A stretch of DNA of 64,000 nt from Pseudomonas profundi. GTDB taxonomy: Bacteria; Pseudomonadota; Gammaproteobacteria; Pseudomonadales; Pseudomonadaceae. Below, one piece after another: positions 8,794 to 56,910 of the stretch. Numbering within the stretch: the first letter of the stretch is position 1; every line of letters starts with the position of its first letter. The notes under the pieces are model-generated. The model did not search any database and had not been told where the DNA came from. It saw only the letters and a list, made by a program, of their open reading frames with translations. Made by a program: the position numbers and the translations under genes. Where the stretch lies: assembly GCF_008638305.1 (NCBI RefSeq), contig NZ_VTPZ01000003.1:124001-188000 (forward strand), in the 5' to 3' direction.

Positions 8794-8835
8794 GCTGGAA
8801 GCTGGAAGCTGGAAGCTGGAAGCTGGAAGCTGGAA
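8794..8835. repeat. Six perfect tandem GCTGGAA heptamers
   Basis: Six uninterrupted copies of the 7-mer GCTGGAA start three bases after the purK stop codon. The unit is not a multiple of three and lies outside coding sequence. Related AGCTGAA/AGCTTC units are found at 4335-4398. Copy number in such arrays is prone to slippage. Confidence 0.95.
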
Positions 8836-8868
8836 GGGTTAGGTTGGGGTTGTTGATCGTTGCCCGCA

Positions 8869-9219
8869 AGCTTGGCGTAGCGCAGGCGCGCTACACCCCC
8901 AGGGATGCGTTGCCTGCCGCACCCTGCATTATCCATTTTGACGTAGCAGCTCCGAGCGGGGCTTCCCTGGGGTTGGCGTGCGCCTGCGCGCCGACAGGGT
9001 GTTATGAGCACGCGGGTTGCGTTCGGTCTCATTGACGGGCTTTGGTGTTGCTTGCGAGCTTGGCGTAGCGCAGGCGCGCTACACCCCCAGGATTGCGCCT
9101 CAGCAGCGGATTGGGCGTCCCTGGGGTTGGCGTGCGGCTCGGGCCGCGTTCGGACGCGCCGACGAGATTTAGCGTTGATTGCGAGCTTGGCGTAGCGCGG
9201 GCGCGCTACACCCCCAGGG
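8869..9219. repeat. Cluster of BIME-like palindromic repeats (5 copies)
   Basis: Three copies of a GCGTAGCGCAGGCGCGCTAC module ending in CACCCCCAGG (about 8870-8903, 9059-9091, 9185-9219) alternate with two copies of the inverted module CCTGGGGTTGGCGTGCG... (about 8965-8999 and 9119-9163; the second has an internal insertion). The same two modules, in the same alternation, build the array at 54366-55407. The region 8792-9267 otherwise holds no gene. Confidence 0.88.
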
Positions 9220-48429: not shown

Positions 48430-48565
48430 GAATGGCCAGTCAAGCCTTTCTTGCTCCTTAGATGTGATTTTAGTGTTGGCAGAAAAACCCGGGCACCCTT
48501 TCCTAGCACAGCCCGGTCGTTAAACCCCGATCCTTCCCTCCCCATAGAAGCTCGGGGTTTTTTTT
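48430..48565 (+). ncRNA. ersA: ErsA-like small RNA
   Basis: The stretch between polA and engB has an AlgU promoter ending at 48423 and a clear intrinsic terminator (CCCCGA 48525-48530, TCGGGG 48552-48557, T8), defining an RNA of about 136 nt. Position (the Spot 42 locus), promoter type and size agree with ErsA, an Hfq-dependent envelope-stress sRNA of Pseudomonas. Exact ends are estimated. Confidence 0.82.
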
Positions 48566-48574
48566 GGCTGCGAT

Positions 48575-52185: not shown

Positions 52186-53067
52186 GTGAGATTTACCGCA
52201 CTGTTTTTTCTCGTCATGCTCCTGGTTGGCTGTACCGGCGGTCCCCGCATCGATACCAGTCACCAATCCAGAAGCCATGACAGCCGTGTACGTTACGTAG
52301 TGCTGCATTACACATCGTCCGGCTTCGACCGGTCCCTGAACGCCCTGACCCAGGGGCCCGTCAGCAGTCACTACCTGATCGATGAAGGTCCGGCCACCAT
52401 CTATCGACTGGTGGACGAAGATCGCCGCGCCTGGCATGCAGGGGAAAGCAGCTGGCAGGGGCGCACCTACGTCAATGGCATATCGATCGGGATCGAACTG
52501 GTACATCGGGGATTTATTGAGACGCCCGAGGGCAGGCGCTGGTATCCCTGGGAGCAGGAACAGATCGACAACCTGGTCACTCTGCTCGAGGATATTCTTC
52601 AGCGCCACGATCTGGCACCGGAACAGGTTGTGGGACACAGCGATGTCGCGCCGCAACGCAAGGTCGATCCGGGTCCGCTGTTTCCGTGGTTTCAACTCGC
52701 GGAGGCGGGCGTGGCAATCTGGCCGGACGCCGATTCGGTAGCCCTCTACCAGGCGCAACTAGCCGGACTCACCCCATCGATCAGCTGGTTCCAGCAGGCG
52801 CTGGCCGGCTTCGGTTACGAGGTTCCGCAAACCGGGCTGTTGGACAAGCCCACACTGAATGTCATCGCGGCCTTTCAGATGCGCTTCCGGCCGGCGCGCC
52901 ATGACGGCCAGCCAGACACCCAGACGGCAGCCCTACTCGCAGCGCTGGTACCCACAGCAGCACAATCGCCCCTATGGTGTGCATACAAGCAGACGTCTGA
53001 AAGCACGACGCCGCCCTGTCTGCTGCCGTTGCCCGACGCAAGCCCCAACCAGGACATTCTTGACTGA
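52186..53067 (+). CDS. Lipoprotein N-acetylmuramoyl-L-alanine amidase (AmpDh2-like)
   Basis: 293 residues from GTG 52186 (AAGGGG upstream). Lipobox LLVGC, so likely anchored in the outer membrane. Amidase_2 domain with zinc ligands in VVLHYTSS and GHSDVAPQRKVDPGPLFPW, and a C-terminal peptidoglycan-binding helical domain (about 200-260). It cleaves the sugar-peptide bond of murein and takes part in recycling and beta-lactamase control in Pseudomonas. Its stop overlaps the next start (TGATG). Confidence 0.9.
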   Translation: MRFTALFFLVMLLVGCTGGPRIDTSHQSRSHDSRVRYVVLHYTSSGFDRSLNALTQGPVSSHYLIDEGPATIYRLVDEDRRAWHAGESSWQGRTYVNGISIGIELVHRGFIETPEGRRWYPWEQEQIDNLVTLLEDILQRHDLAPEQVVGHSDVAPQRKVDPGPLFPWFQLAEAGVAIWPDADSVALYQAQLAGLTPSISWFQQALAGFGYEVPQTGLLDKPTLNVIAAFQMRFRPARHDGQPDTQTAALLAALVPTAAQSPLWCAYKQTSESTTPPCLLPLPDASPNQDILD

Positions 53068-54296
53068 TGCTGAACGGAATCTGGCTCGGCTTTTTTACCG
53101 CTGCGTTCGCCGCCGCGCTCTGGCAATGGCTCGGCGTCGGCGATAGCGAAGTCTTCAGCCGTCTGGTGGCGTCACTGTTTGATATGGCGCGGTTGAGCGT
53201 CGAAATCGTATTGGTGCTGGTCGGCACCATGACGCTATGGCTGGGTTTCCTGGCCATCGCCGAAAAAGCCGGCCTGATCAGGGTACTGGCACGCGTGCTG
53301 GATCCCCTGTTCCGGCGCCTGATGCCCGAGGTGCCCAGCGGCCATCCGGCGCTGGGGCATATCACCATGAATTTCGCCGCCAATGTGCTGGGGCTGGACA
53401 ATGCCGCCACGCCGATCGGCCTCAAGGCCATGCACGCCCTGCAGAGCCTGAACCCGAACAAGGAAACCGCCACCAACGCACAGATCCTGTTCCTGGTGCT
53501 GAATACCTCGTCGCTGACGCTGCTCCCGGTCACTATTTTCATGTACCGGGCGCAACAGGGCGCAGCGGATCCTACTGCGGTGTTTCTGCCGATTCTGCTG
53601 GCGACTACCGCCTCAAGCCTGGTTGGCCTGTTGTCCGTGGCGGTGATGCAACGCCTGCGGCTGTGGGACCCGGTCGTGCTGGCCTATCTCCTGGGTGGCG
53701 CACTCGCCCTGGGCGCGCTGCTGGCCACGCTCGCCGGCATGTCTGCCCAAGCATTGAGCGCCACCTCGACACTGGTCGGCAACCTGACGCTGTTCGGCAT
53801 CATCATGGCGTTTTTGCTGGTAGGCGCGCTGCGCAAGGTAAACGTCTACGACACCTTTATCGAAGGCGCAAAGGAAGGCTTCAGCTTCACCATGTCACTG
53901 CTGCCGTTCCTGGTGGCGATGCTGGTGGCGGTCGGGGTGCTGCGCGCCAGCGGCGTACTGGACGCCGGCCTGGACGGGATTCGCTGGGTGGCTGATGCGC
54001 TGGGTTGGGATACGCGTTTCATCGATGCGCTGCCCACGGCCTTTATCAAACCGCTATCGGGCAGCGGCGCCCGGGCCATGATGATAGAGACCATGGATAC
54101 CTTTGGTGTCGACAGCTTCCCGGCTCTGATGGCCGCGACCTTCCAGGGCAGCACCGAAACGACCTTCTATGTCATCGCCGTGTATTTTGGCGCGGTCGGT
54201 ATCCGTCGCGTCCGCCACGGGCTGGGCTGCGCGCTGCTGGCTGATCTGGCAGGGATGCTGACTGCCATAGCAGTCTGTTACTGGTTTTTTGGGTAG
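53067..54296 (+). CDS. SpmA-SpmB fused Gate-domain membrane protein
   Basis: 409 residues with about ten membrane helices and two nucleoside-recognition (Gate) halves, as in spore maturation proteins SpmA and SpmB joined (GHITMNFAANVLGLDNAATPIG near 93; KPLSGSGARAM near 325; QGSTETTFYVIAVYFG near 365). Coupled to the amidase by a one-base overlap. Transport or envelope role suspected; no substrate is known. Confidence 0.88.
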   Translation: MLNGIWLGFFTAAFAAALWQWLGVGDSEVFSRLVASLFDMARLSVEIVLVLVGTMTLWLGFLAIAEKAGLIRVLARVLDPLFRRLMPEVPSGHPALGHITMNFAANVLGLDNAATPIGLKAMHALQSLNPNKETATNAQILFLVLNTSSLTLLPVTIFMYRAQQGAADPTAVFLPILLATTASSLVGLLSVAVMQRLRLWDPVVLAYLLGGALALGALLATLAGMSAQALSATSTLVGNLTLFGIIMAFLLVGALRKVNVYDTFIEGAKEGFSFTMSLLPFLVAMLVAVGVLRASGVLDAGLDGIRWVADALGWDTRFIDALPTAFIKPLSGSGARAMMIETMDTFGVDSFPALMAATFQGSTETTFYVIAVYFGAVGIRRVRHGLGCALLADLAGMLTAIAVCYWFFG

Positions 54297-54365
54297 GGTC
54301 TGCTGGCATCTCACCGCAGCTCGATATGAAAGTTGGGATCTGCCGCATTAGCTGCAGCAGGCCGC

Positions 54366-55407
54366 CCTGGGGTTGGCGTGCGCCTGCGCGCCGACAGGCA
54401 AAGCTTGATGCCACGTGCGGGCACGGCGTAGCGCAGGCGCGCTACACCCCCAGGTGCGTTGTGCGATAGCTCATATTCATGACCCAACGCAGCGGATCGA
54501 ACGGGTCCCCCTGGGGTTGGCGTGCGCCTGCGCGCCGACAGGCAAAAGCGTGAGGTCAAGCGCGAGCACGGCGTAGCCCAGGCGCGCTACACCCCCAGGT
54601 GCGTTGCGCGATAGCTCATACTCATGATCCAACGCAGCGGATCGAACGGGTCCCCCTGGGGTTGGCGTGCGCCTGCGCGCCGACAGGCAAAAGCGTGAGG
54701 CCAAGCGCGAGCACGGCGTAGCGCAGGCCCGCTACACTCCAGGTGCGTTGTGCGATAGCTCATATTCAGGATCCAACGCAGCGGATCGAACGGGTCCCCC
54801 TGGGGTTGGCGTGCGCCTGCGCGCCGACAGGCAAAAGCGTGAGGTCAAGCGCGAGCACGGCGTAGCCCAGGCGCGCTACACCCCCAGGTGCGTTGCGCGA
54901 TAGCTCATACTCATGATCCAACGCAGCGGATCGAACGGGTCCCCCTGGGGTTGGCGTGCGCCTGCGCGCCGACAGGCAAAAGCGTGAGGCCAAGCGCGAG
55001 CACGGCGTAGCGCAGGCGCGCTACACCCCCAGGTGCGTTGCGCGATAGCTCATACTCATGATCCAACGCAGCGGATCGAACGGGTCCCCCTGGGGTTGGC
55101 GTGCGCCTGCGCGCCGACAGGCAAAAGCGTGAGGCCAAGCGCGAGCACGGCGTAGCGCAGGCGCGCTACACTCCAGGTGCGTTGTGCGATAGCTCATATT
55201 CAGGATCCAACGCAGCGGATCGAACGGGTCCCCCTGGGGTTGGCGTGCGCCTGCGCGCCGACAGGCAAAAGCGTGAGGTCAAGCGCGAGCACGGCGTAGC
55301 GCAGGCGCACAACTCCCAGGTGCGTTGCGCCCTAGCTCATATTCAGGAACCAACGCAGCGGACCGAACGGGCTCCCCTGGGGTTGGCGTGCGCCTGCGCG
55401 CCGACAA
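54366..55407. repeat. BIME-like tandem array, eight units of about 144 bp
   Basis: TTGGCGTGCGCCTGCGCGCC starts at 54373, 54517, 54662, 54806, 54951, 55096, 55240 and 55383, a spacing of 143-145 bp. Each unit has this module and, in inverted orientation, a GCGTAGCGCAGGCGCGCTAC module, with nearly identical spacers between. The last unit is cut short. Reading frames across it on both strands (several of 75-108 codons) are by-products of the repeat. The gap 54297-55572 has no other gene. Confidence 0.95.
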
Positions 55408-55572
55408 AGGTTGGCACCCTTGCATAGCGCTGAGCTGCCTCAAACGGGCTTCATCGTGGAGTGGCGTGCGCTCGCCCAGGTTACCGCTCGCGATCGACGG
55501 CCAATACCCCCTTCCTGCGGGGCCGGAATCATCTGTTAAGCTGTCAAAACAGCCTCACACAGGACCGCGCCG

Positions 55573-56910
55573 ATGTCTGCACCCCGATTCGATCAGCTTC
55601 ACCGCGAGCCAGGCCCCTTCTTTGTCGCCCTTGGGGGCGCCGGCATGTTCGGTGCCAATTTCTATCTGTACGGCTCGGCTGGCGAATGGATCGCGGTGGA
55701 TTGCGGTTTCGCTCTGCAATCGGCCCCCGGGGGCGCAACACAGGTATCGATTCCGGACGTCGGCGCTCTTGAGCGTCACGACATCAAACTTTCGGCGATC
55801 CTGATTACCCACGGGCACGAAGATCATATCGGCGCGATCCCTTATCTCTGGCGACAGCTGGACTGTCCACTCTATGCCAGCCCTTTCACCGCAAGGCTTA
55901 TCCGTAACAAGCTTGATCCAGCCCTCAGCTGGCCAACCCTGCGTGAGATCAAGCCACTGCAACCGGTGGGCATTGGCGCCTTTCAGGCTGAATGGATACC
56001 GGTCACCCACTCGATCCCGGAATCGCATGGCATTGTGCTCGACGTCGCGGGCAAACGGCTTTACCACAGTGGCGACTGGAAGCTGGATCCGCAGCCGGTC
56101 GTGGGTGGCCTGACCGCACAGGGTCGGCTGCAGGCGATTGGCCGCAGTGGTGTGGACGTGATTATTGGCGACTCCACCAATGCGCCGACGGCTGGAGCCA
56201 GTTATTCCGAAGCAAGCGTACAGAACGGTCTGCTCGACACCATCCGGGCATGCCGCAAACGGGTCATCGTGACCTGTTTCGCCAGCAATCTCGCGCGCCT
56301 GCACAGTCTTGCGGAAATCGCCTTCGATACTGCGCGTTACGCAGGCCTGCTCGGGCGCAGCCTGCTGACCATGCACCGGGCCGGCCGTGCGCATGACTAT
56401 CTGAGCGCCCGCCCCGGATTTATCGATCCCTGGGAGCTGGGCTATTTGCCGCGCGAGCAACAACTGTGGATCTGCACCGGTAGCCAGGGCGAGCCCGCTG
56501 CGGCTCTGGGCAGGCTGGCCAGCGGAAGCCATCCGCATCTGTCACTGGAGGAAGGCGACACTGTGGTGTTTTCCTCGCGATTGATTCCGGGAAATGAGGA
56601 GTCGCTGGCTGCGATCAAGTCAGGTTTGAAGGAGCAGGGCGTCACAGTCATCGATGACGACATGGCGCCCATCCACGCCTCCGGCCACCCGCCTCAGGAT
56701 GATCTGCGCCAGCTATATGGATGGTTGAACGCGCGCTATTTACTGCCGGTGCACGGCGAGCCCTACCATCAGCAAGCTCACCTCAAGTTCAGTCGCAGCC
56801 TGGGATTGAGCGGCCTGGTGCCGGCCAACGGCGACCTGATAGACCTGCGCGGACGGCCGTGCAAGGTGGCGCAGATGTCGACGGGGTTGGTTGAGATTCA
56901 GCGGGATTGA
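55573..56910 (+). CDS. RNase J-like metallo-beta-lactamase nuclease
   Basis: 445 residues: MBL core with HGHEDHIGA near 81, beta-CASP insert, GDSTNAPTAG near 200, and the RMMBL tail with VHGEPYH near 395. RNase J enzymes degrade and mature RNA; in Pseudomonas with RNase E the role is uncertain, and this short form lacks the C-terminal domain of Bacillus RNase J. Stands alone between two repeat regions. Confidence 0.86.
   Translation: MSAPRFDQLHREPGPFFVALGGAGMFGANFYLYGSAGEWIAVDCGFALQSAPGGATQVSIPDVGALERHDIKLSAILITHGHEDHIGAIPYLWRQLDCPLYASPFTARLIRNKLDPALSWPTLREIKPLQPVGIGAFQAEWIPVTHSIPESHGIVLDVAGKRLYHSGDWKLDPQPVVGGLTAQGRLQAIGRSGVDVIIGDSTNAPTAGASYSEASVQNGLLDTIRACRKRVIVTCFASNLARLHSLAEIAFDTARYAGLLGRSLLTMHRAGRAHDYLSARPGFIDPWELGYLPREQQLWICTGSQGEPAAALGRLASGSHPHLSLEEGDTVVFSSRLIPGNEESLAAIKSGLKEQGVTVIDDDMAPIHASGHPPQDDLRQLYGWLNARYLLPVHGEPYHQQAHLKFSRSLGLSGLVPANGDLIDLRGRPCKVAQMSTGLVEIQRD

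Follow-up and report, generated by a model that had tools for sequence, protein, structure and literature searches.

What fills the 1.3-kb gap that separates a Gate-domain gene from an RNase J-like gene in Pseudomonas profundi, how did it get there, and does it do anything for the cell? The gap lies within the window analyzed here, a stretch of 64,000 nucleotides (contig NZ_VTPZ01000003.1, positions 124,001 to 188,000). Most of the gap consists of repeats that belong to a known kind. The reading that we hold with high confidence is that of a tandem REPIN (BIME) array that began as an ancestral insertion, would have owed its mobility to a REP-associated tyrosine transposase (RAYT), was multiplied and homogenized in each species on its own, and is mostly a tolerated by-product. 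In what follows, G000 is this genome (4.21 Mb, a draft of 56 contigs), G021 is its nearest relative, and G016 is the next relative.

Structure of the array

The array consists of REP-B elements on the minus strand (eight copies) alternating with inverted REP-A elements of the GTAG type on the plus strand (seven copies). A first-pass annotation of this DNA had described alternating inverted palindromes at a spacing of about 144 bp, and both the description and the coordinates (54366-55406) were confirmed. It had also counted eight units; the array is made up of seven full units of 143-145 bp plus a lone terminal REP-B, for a total of about 1.04 kb (Table 1). Successive unit starts are 144, 145, 144, 145, 145, 144, and 143 bp apart. 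All eight copies of REP-B, GTCGGCGCGCAGGCGCACGCCAAC, are without any difference, and the seven copies of REP-A show 0-3 differences from GGCGTAGCGCAGGCGCGCTACAC.

Table 1. Positions of the array, its parts and its surroundings in the window
Feature	Position	Strand	Remarks
Tandem REPIN/BIME array	54366..55406	.	From unit comparison and TRF
Array unit 1	54366..54509	+	Edge unit; inner spacer is the most sister-like
Array unit 2	54510..54654	+	Same sequence as unit 4
Array unit 3	54655..54798	+	1 difference from unit 6
Array unit 4	54799..54943	+	Same sequence as unit 2
Array unit 5	54944..55088	+	Hybrid: start of 3/6 and end of 2/4
Array unit 6	55089..55232	+	1 difference from unit 3
Array unit 7	55233..55375	+	Edge unit, most diverged; 3 changes in REP-A
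REP-B copy 1, GTCGGCGCGCAGGCGCACGCCAAC	54372..54395	-	Other copies start at 54516, 54661, 54805, 54950, 55095, 55239
Terminal REP-B	55382..55405	-	No REP-A partner
REP-A copy 1	54425..54447	+	5' GTAG type; DNA fold -8.1 kcal/mol, z -2.67
Further REP-A copies		+	Start at 54570, 54715, 54859, 55004, 55149, 55293
Second cluster of the same REP family (locus L153)	8874..9211	.	3 REP-A, 1 exact REP-B, 1 long REP-B variant
Upstream gene, Gate domain (nucleoside recognition) protein	53067..54296	+	PF07670, 72 bits
Left flank	54297..54365	+	Alike in G021, not in the G016 gap; aligned by eye
Right flank	55407..55513	+	Partly alike in G021, not in the G016 gap; by eye
RNase J-like leader	55514..55572	+	Block TCTGTTAAGCTG at 55532-55543; equals the whole 59-nt G016 gap, by eye
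Downstream gene, RNase J-like beta-CASP metallo-beta-lactamase-fold protein	55573..56910	+	

In each pair, REP-B is followed by a spacer of 29-30 nt and then by REP-A, with the GTAG-type ends pointing inward, and the distance from one pair to the next is 66-68 nt. The CCTGGGG...CCCCAGG ends of the pair are able to form one long hairpin, and in units 1 and 5 this is visible as 24-nt arms that are 83% complementary and 41-42 nt apart. DNA folds of the pair gave z scores of -2.08 and -3.32 on the plus strand and -1.31 on the minus strand. The pair thus has the inverted REPs, the short spacer, and the common hairpin of a REPIN or BIME, and unit comparison and Tandem Repeats Finder (TRF) place near-identical REPINs head to tail together with their flanks, as in a tandem (ordered) REPIN cluster. 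The mobile unit may be either REP-B/REP-A or REP-A/REP-B, and loci differ in which spacer is the shorter one: the median from REP-B to REP-A is 24-30 nt at 11 of the 21 loci holding such pairs, and at others, such as L133, L134, L138, and L157, the distance from REP-A to REP-B is the short one (31-43 nt, with 64-67 nt from REP-B to REP-A). A hairpin of REP-A and the next REP-B folds too (z -2.09).

A CRISPR-like or RNA-gene reading of the array was rejected. The Rfam scan of the window at gathering thresholds had no match within the array and gave only Pseudomon-1/ErsA outside it, and a tRNA scan of the window found none. The ErsA/Pseudomon-1 sRNA itself is at window positions 48451-48573 (RF01719, 65.1 bits against a gathering score of 50).

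The units are not all equally alike. The edge units, 1 and 7, show 9-20 differences from the others, and units 2-6 show 0-8 among themselves. The first-pass annotation had seen an alternating two-unit pattern and suggested duplication of a 290-bp dimer. Alternation does exist, but it runs through units 1-5 only: the GTAGCCC/GTAGCGC variant reads G, C, G, C, G, G, G from unit 1 to unit 7. The TRF scores are 1832 for a period of 145, 1853 for 289, and 1909 for 434, the highest being the one for three units, and 290-bp blocks spaced 434 bp apart share 99% identity. A clean duplication of a 290-bp dimer was rejected on the unit comparison and the top TRF score. We read the pattern of units as one that repeated unequal exchange, rather than a single dimer duplication, would leave behind.

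Repeats of this kind also raise the matter of assembly. The number or order of the units could have been invented by the assembler, given a draft of 56 contigs in which units 2 and 4 are identical and those 290-bp blocks match so closely, but such an artifact is extremely unlikely in view of the single-contig genome of G021, which has an array at this site too, and of edge units that are distinct and joined to flanks resembling those of G021.

The REP family and its transposase

The modules are dispersed elsewhere in the genome, as the first-pass annotation had supposed. REP-A is present in 133 copies at up to 3 mismatches and the same pattern reversed in 0, which excludes a chance origin; REP-B is present in 47 copies, again with 0 for its reversed control. 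REP-A has the form expected of a GTAG-type REP, a short palindrome with GTAG or GTGG in front of it and many intergenic copies: it reads GTAGCGC-AGGC-GCGCTAC, and 48 of 50 clusters are outside predicted ORFs as called heuristically. REP-B bears the tag GTCG rather than GTAG, and its hairpin alone is weak (z -0.71).

In the 46 genome stretches taken round REP places there are 195 REP-like elements, and the array between the Gate and RNase J-like genes is the REP-richest single cluster among them, with 15 REPs. It had been called unusually regular, a description that does not survive comparison with the rest of the genome. Judged by eye, regular arrays are found in nine of the 46 stretches, counting the present one (periods of about 113, 126, 144, 145, 149, 149, 154, 197, and 267 bp), so that regularity is a general outcome in this genome. 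The second cluster of the family in the window (Table 1) adjoins a 7-bp repeat, GCTGGAA, in six head-to-tail copies at 8794-8836.

The genome has five Y1 transposase genes, and the search for a RAYT with the same REP ends was successful with one of them. It lies at contig C1:444879-445517 and codes for 212 aa, including HVH and YIHQNP, which we take to be its RAYT motifs. The protein passes NF047646, "REP-associated tyrosine transposase," with 87.5 bits (cut-off 80) and scores 40.8 bits against PF01797 (cut-off 23). A REP-A overlaps the 3' end of the gene, an inverted REP-B with 2 mismatches lies upstream, and more REPs are found on both sides, so the locus has the structure of a REPtron, a Y1/HUH RAYT between inverted REPs of the same type. 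Three of the other four Y1 genes have neither REP in their stretches (at up to 4 mismatches for REP-A and 6 for REP-B), and the fourth, at L001, has just one REP-A, at a distance of about 1.2 kb. On this sequence comparison, the C1 gene is the probable cognate of the array's REP family. Near it, L003 1-475 resembles a polysaccharide export gene.

The abundance of REPs also goes with the cognate RAYT across the genus, as it would for a REPtron. A RAYT at least 65% identical is found in 5 of the 37 genus genomes, which have 46, 95, 125, 133, and 205 copies of REP-A; the other 32 have 0-50, with at least one copy in ten of them (Mann-Whitney p 4e-5, with a post hoc cut-off and with kinship ignored). 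None of 21 genomes from other genera has a copy of REP-A. The exception is G016, with 50 copies of REP-A and a best RAYT match of 51%. In that genome, the syntenic RAYT site (L226, contig C22, 8362-9171) has both flanking genes and no RAYT. According to a model in the available part of PMC3686654, REPs decay slowly after the loss of the RAYT, and G016 fits such a history, in which a lost RAYT would have left slowly decaying REPs behind. The co-occurrence of RAYTs and REPs is described in PMC2817692, and recognition and cutting of REPs by TnpA-REP in PMC8266576, as far as the accessible text of each goes. From this association and the published biochemistry of other RAYTs, mobility would come from the cognate RAYT, which would cut and rejoin single-stranded REP DNA.

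A general crowding of REP loci round the RAYT was considered and rejected: they are denser near it in G021 and G003 and not in G036. In G021, 10 REP loci lie within 100 kb of the RAYT (C1, about 1525039) against 2.46 expected, a number reached by 2.1% of random centers; at 50, 150, 250, and 500 kb the corresponding shares are 5.1%, 7.0%, 3.6%, and 10.8%. With the 100 best places per genome taken, 16 of 76 listed clusters in G003 are on the RAYT contig (C11) against 5.0 expected, and 3 of 56 in G036 against 3.5. The density in G021 and G003 is possibly local dispersal. REP-A showed no strand bias by half-chromosome in G021 (22+/16- and 7+/6-, one call per locus, with the replication origin assumed near the contig start).

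History of the site

Gate loci were surveyed in 30 genomes, this one and 29 relatives, of the 43 with a Gate match. In 23 of the 30, the RNase J-like gene was located downstream (the protein encoded here stays below both NCBIfam cut-offs, that for RNase J1 and that for the RNase J family). REPs occupy the gap between the two genes in just 2 of these 23 loci, those of G000 (1276 nt) and G021 (819 nt). Without REPs the gap is short, with 59 nt in G016, 58 nt in G014, and 60 nt in G030, and it measures 43-63 nt in 11 of the 23. In the DNA of the Gate gene, G021 is 91.4% identical to G000, G016 is 88.1% identical, and seven other relatives reach at most 81.1%. Because of these identities and the REP-free gap of G016, the simplest reading is that REP DNA was inserted in the common ancestor of G000 and G021. 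Synteny suggests that it would have entered a gap of roughly 60 nt, after the stop codon of the Gate gene and upstream of the RNase J-like leader. That leader, including the block TCTGTTAAGCTG, has been retained beyond the array in G000 as well as in G021.

The insertion may have been more than a simple one. In addition to the array, G000 has 69 nt on the left and 107 nt on the right that G016 lacks, and this DNA is mostly not REP when aligned by eye, although a REP-B-like remnant is seen near 55461-55476 in the right flank. The extra flanks indicate that more than a single bare REPIN entered at first, and the insertion may have been larger or compound.

Other repeats are found after the Gate gene in relatives. 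By eye, the gaps at L087, L089, L090, and L095 contain 7-bp tandem repeats such as GCTTGAA, GCTGCAA, GCTGGAA, and GGCTGAA, meaning that unrelated repeat types have entered the gap between the Gate and RNase J-like genes. Another palindrome of roughly 90-140 nt, CTGACCTGTTCTGGACACGCC...GGTCCAGAACAGGTCAGC and variants, follows the Gate gene in four species (L082, L083, L084, and L085, also by eye).

Turnover between sister species

Copy number in sister strains was one of the checks proposed in the first-pass annotation, and it differs in the nearest relative. At the same site, G021 has four units and a terminal REP with a period of 153 bp, as opposed to seven and a REP in G000. The distance between units is at most 0.12 within G000 (21 pairs) and at most 0.098 within G021 (6 pairs), compared to at least 0.236 between the two (28 pairs). 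The inner spacers are 29-30 nt long in G000 and 38-39 nt long in G021, and their sequences differ too. Edge unit 1 of G000 scores 20-23 against the G021 spacers, and units 2-7 score 13-19; it is expected that unit 1 should be the closest if the interior was homogenized and the edge was not. These comparisons suggest that the site of the array was fixed and that expansion and homogenization then took place separately in G000 and G021. The multiplication of unit and linker head to tail, and their homogenization per species, can be read from the pattern itself, and the agent would be slippage or unequal recombination between units, leading to 144.5-bp units in G000 and 153-bp units in G021.

One could also consider that the whole array was copied in ready-made from elsewhere instead of being multiplied on site. 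According to the available part of PMC3116915, one genome has a pair of near-identical 12-REP arrays in separate places, and here, among the matches listed, stretches of 80-230 nt to other loci of the genome reach 69-81% identity. Even so, a ready-made copy is most improbable. Among the matches listed of at least 80 nt outside the array, the best has 81% identity (C54:9267-9353), with shorter, REP-only matches reaching 100%, the units within the array differ by just 0-20 positions, and in this place G021 has units of its own. Multiplication on site remains the preferred reading.

Changes in REP number are seen at other sites as well. There are 29 REP sites common to G000 and G021 on both flanks, with 80-95% DNA identity; REP number is equal at 11 of them, higher in G000 at 13, and higher in G021 at 5. 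At common sites with at least 4 detected REPs in either genome, 12 of the 15 differ in REP number. Some of these differences may reflect decay, which can look like loss, as the number detected varies with the mismatch limits. The 29 sites exclude the one-flank matches (L127/L215, L141/L219, L143/L197, L166/L208, and L167/L207), the RAYT locus (L133/L190), and the cross-matches L133/L191 and L134/L190. REPs that are 1.7-3.1 kb from the common site are uncounted at L132/L187, L136/L192, L140/L195, and L148/L209. On the side of G021, the comparison covers 40 of the 46 merged REP stretches, the six left out being single-copy.

A bolder generalization would be that the REPIN arrays of the genus are fixed in place and that their units, spacers, and periods are replaced and re-amplified within a species faster than point divergence, possibly driven by the RAYT via single-stranded intermediates instead of ordinary recombination. 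We consider this quite unlikely. If it is true, REP loci would be RAYT-dependent, length-variable 3' elements, here between the Gate and RNase J-like genes. The pair of G000 and G021, with a REP-free outgroup, makes it testable whether turnover needs the RAYT or only recombination. No title among the papers listed joins REPINs with concerted evolution, and a search under the genus name Halopseudomonas (the older species names being outside it) gave none on repetitive extragenic palindromic sequences.

Possible function

The role of the array, if any, has to be judged from where REPs are found and what they contain. Heuristic gene calls (ORF length and GC3 minus GC2) were used to sort 50 REP clusters by their neighbors: 22 are at convergent gene pairs, 23 at co-directional pairs, and 3 at divergent pairs, with the remaining 2 inside ORFs. 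The heuristic missed the RAYT, so one "convergent" cluster is in fact co-directional, and the corrected numbers are 21 convergent and 24 co-directional. The difference between convergent and divergent clusters has a p of 1.6e-4 before the correction and 2.8e-4 after it. Since convergent and divergent gene pairs are about equally frequent, the 22 versus 3 indicates that REPs appear to spare promoter regions.

The first-pass annotation had listed gyrase or IHF binding, mRNA end protection, and termination after the Gate gene as possible roles, and these fared differently. We took WATCAANNNNTTR as the IHF consensus for a scan, and no match with up to 1 mismatch was found in 54366-55406, which leaves IHF binding of the BIME-1 kind without a site there; over the window there are 28 such matches against 23.6 expected. 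Termination fares no better, in that the array has no intrinsic terminator consensus (a hairpin with a T run). The one site of this type is at 55636-55656, inside the downstream gene, compared to a shuffle mean of 1.0. A promoter consensus scan of the array found none. Gyrase binding and mRNA end protection would both agree with the position of the array, 3' of the Gate gene.

In E. coli BIMEs, DNA gyrase binds and cleaves within BIME-2, and an IHF site lies between the REPs of BIME-1. With these as a precedent, mentioned in the available portion of PMC3686654, the array could be a BIME-2-like chromosome organizer, a site for DNA gyrase (and IHF) that relieves supercoils, and the fact that convergent pairs have more REP clusters than divergent ones would suit such a role. 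The missing IHF-like site and the position of this array between co-directional genes argue against it, and we regard it as very unlikely.

A regulatory element under selection is unlikely as well. Here, array length would tune read-through from the Gate gene into the RNase J-like gene, or the array would protect the 3' end of the Gate mRNA, in the manner of a BIME attenuator or stabilizer. The two genes are co-directional and only 43-63 nt apart in 11 of 23 loci, divergent gene pairs are spared, and the RNA of one unit folds into a strong plus-strand hairpin (-49.6 kcal/mol, z -3.2, as compared to z -1.7 for the minus strand). In addition, PMC3116915, in the part of the paper available, proposes that ordered clusters have specific functional roles. 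What weighs against selection is that 21 of the 23 measured gaps are without REPs, that period, spacer, and copy number differ between sister species, and that the array lacks the terminator consensus. REP number also varies at 12 of the 15 multi-REP sites, and this has the appearance of neutral turnover.

Since the sisters share neither copy number nor spacer nor period, neutral turnover of a tolerated insertion is most likely. The array would be mostly a by-product of little cost, being 3' of a gene and sparing the downstream leader. An effect on the 3' end of the Gate mRNA or on read-through is possible, and if there is any effect, the likeliest is that successive hairpins at the 3' end of this mRNA would slow 3' decay or lower read-through into the RNase J-like gene.

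Comparison with known systems

The array belongs to the ordered tandem REPIN clusters that have already been described. Those of P. fluorescens SBW25 (Bertels and Rainey 2011, PMC3116915) are the closest, according to the part of the paper available: near-identical REPINs run head to tail together with their flanking sequence, and some of the clusters adjoin RAYTs. The REP sequence family is different here. The array of seven REPINs and one REP (about 1.04 kb) is also longer than the largest ordered SBW25 cluster of four and one (over 700 bp); tandem REP arrays of SBW25, described separately in the same text, have up to 12 REPs.

The E. coli BIMEs of the BIME-2 type, as presented in the accessible parts of PMC2817692 and PMC8266576, are alike in having REPs and inverted REPs alternate in tandem with linkers between genes. 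They differ in the sequence of the REP (that of the E. coli RAYT REPs is given in PMC2817692), and the array here is without an IHF-like site. The GTAG-tagged REP super-family (PMC3733652) shares the tag at one end of the palindrome and the dimers with tags inside, and tandem reiteration of GTAG repeats including flanking DNA is reported there; the likeness is one of description, and REP-B differs in having GTCG. The names aestusnigri and pertucinogena are absent from the available text of PMC3733652.

For the formation of ordered clusters, PMC3116915 infers, in the part available, a "second mechanism" that it does not name, and the 29 common REP sites bear on it, the detected REP number differing at 18 of them and agreeing at 11. 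A difference from the SBW25 clusters is that the present array has a counterpart in a sister species with which it can be compared. The comparison adds a case of an array site common to two sister species and rewritten in each of them on its own, with an outgroup that is REP-free at that place.
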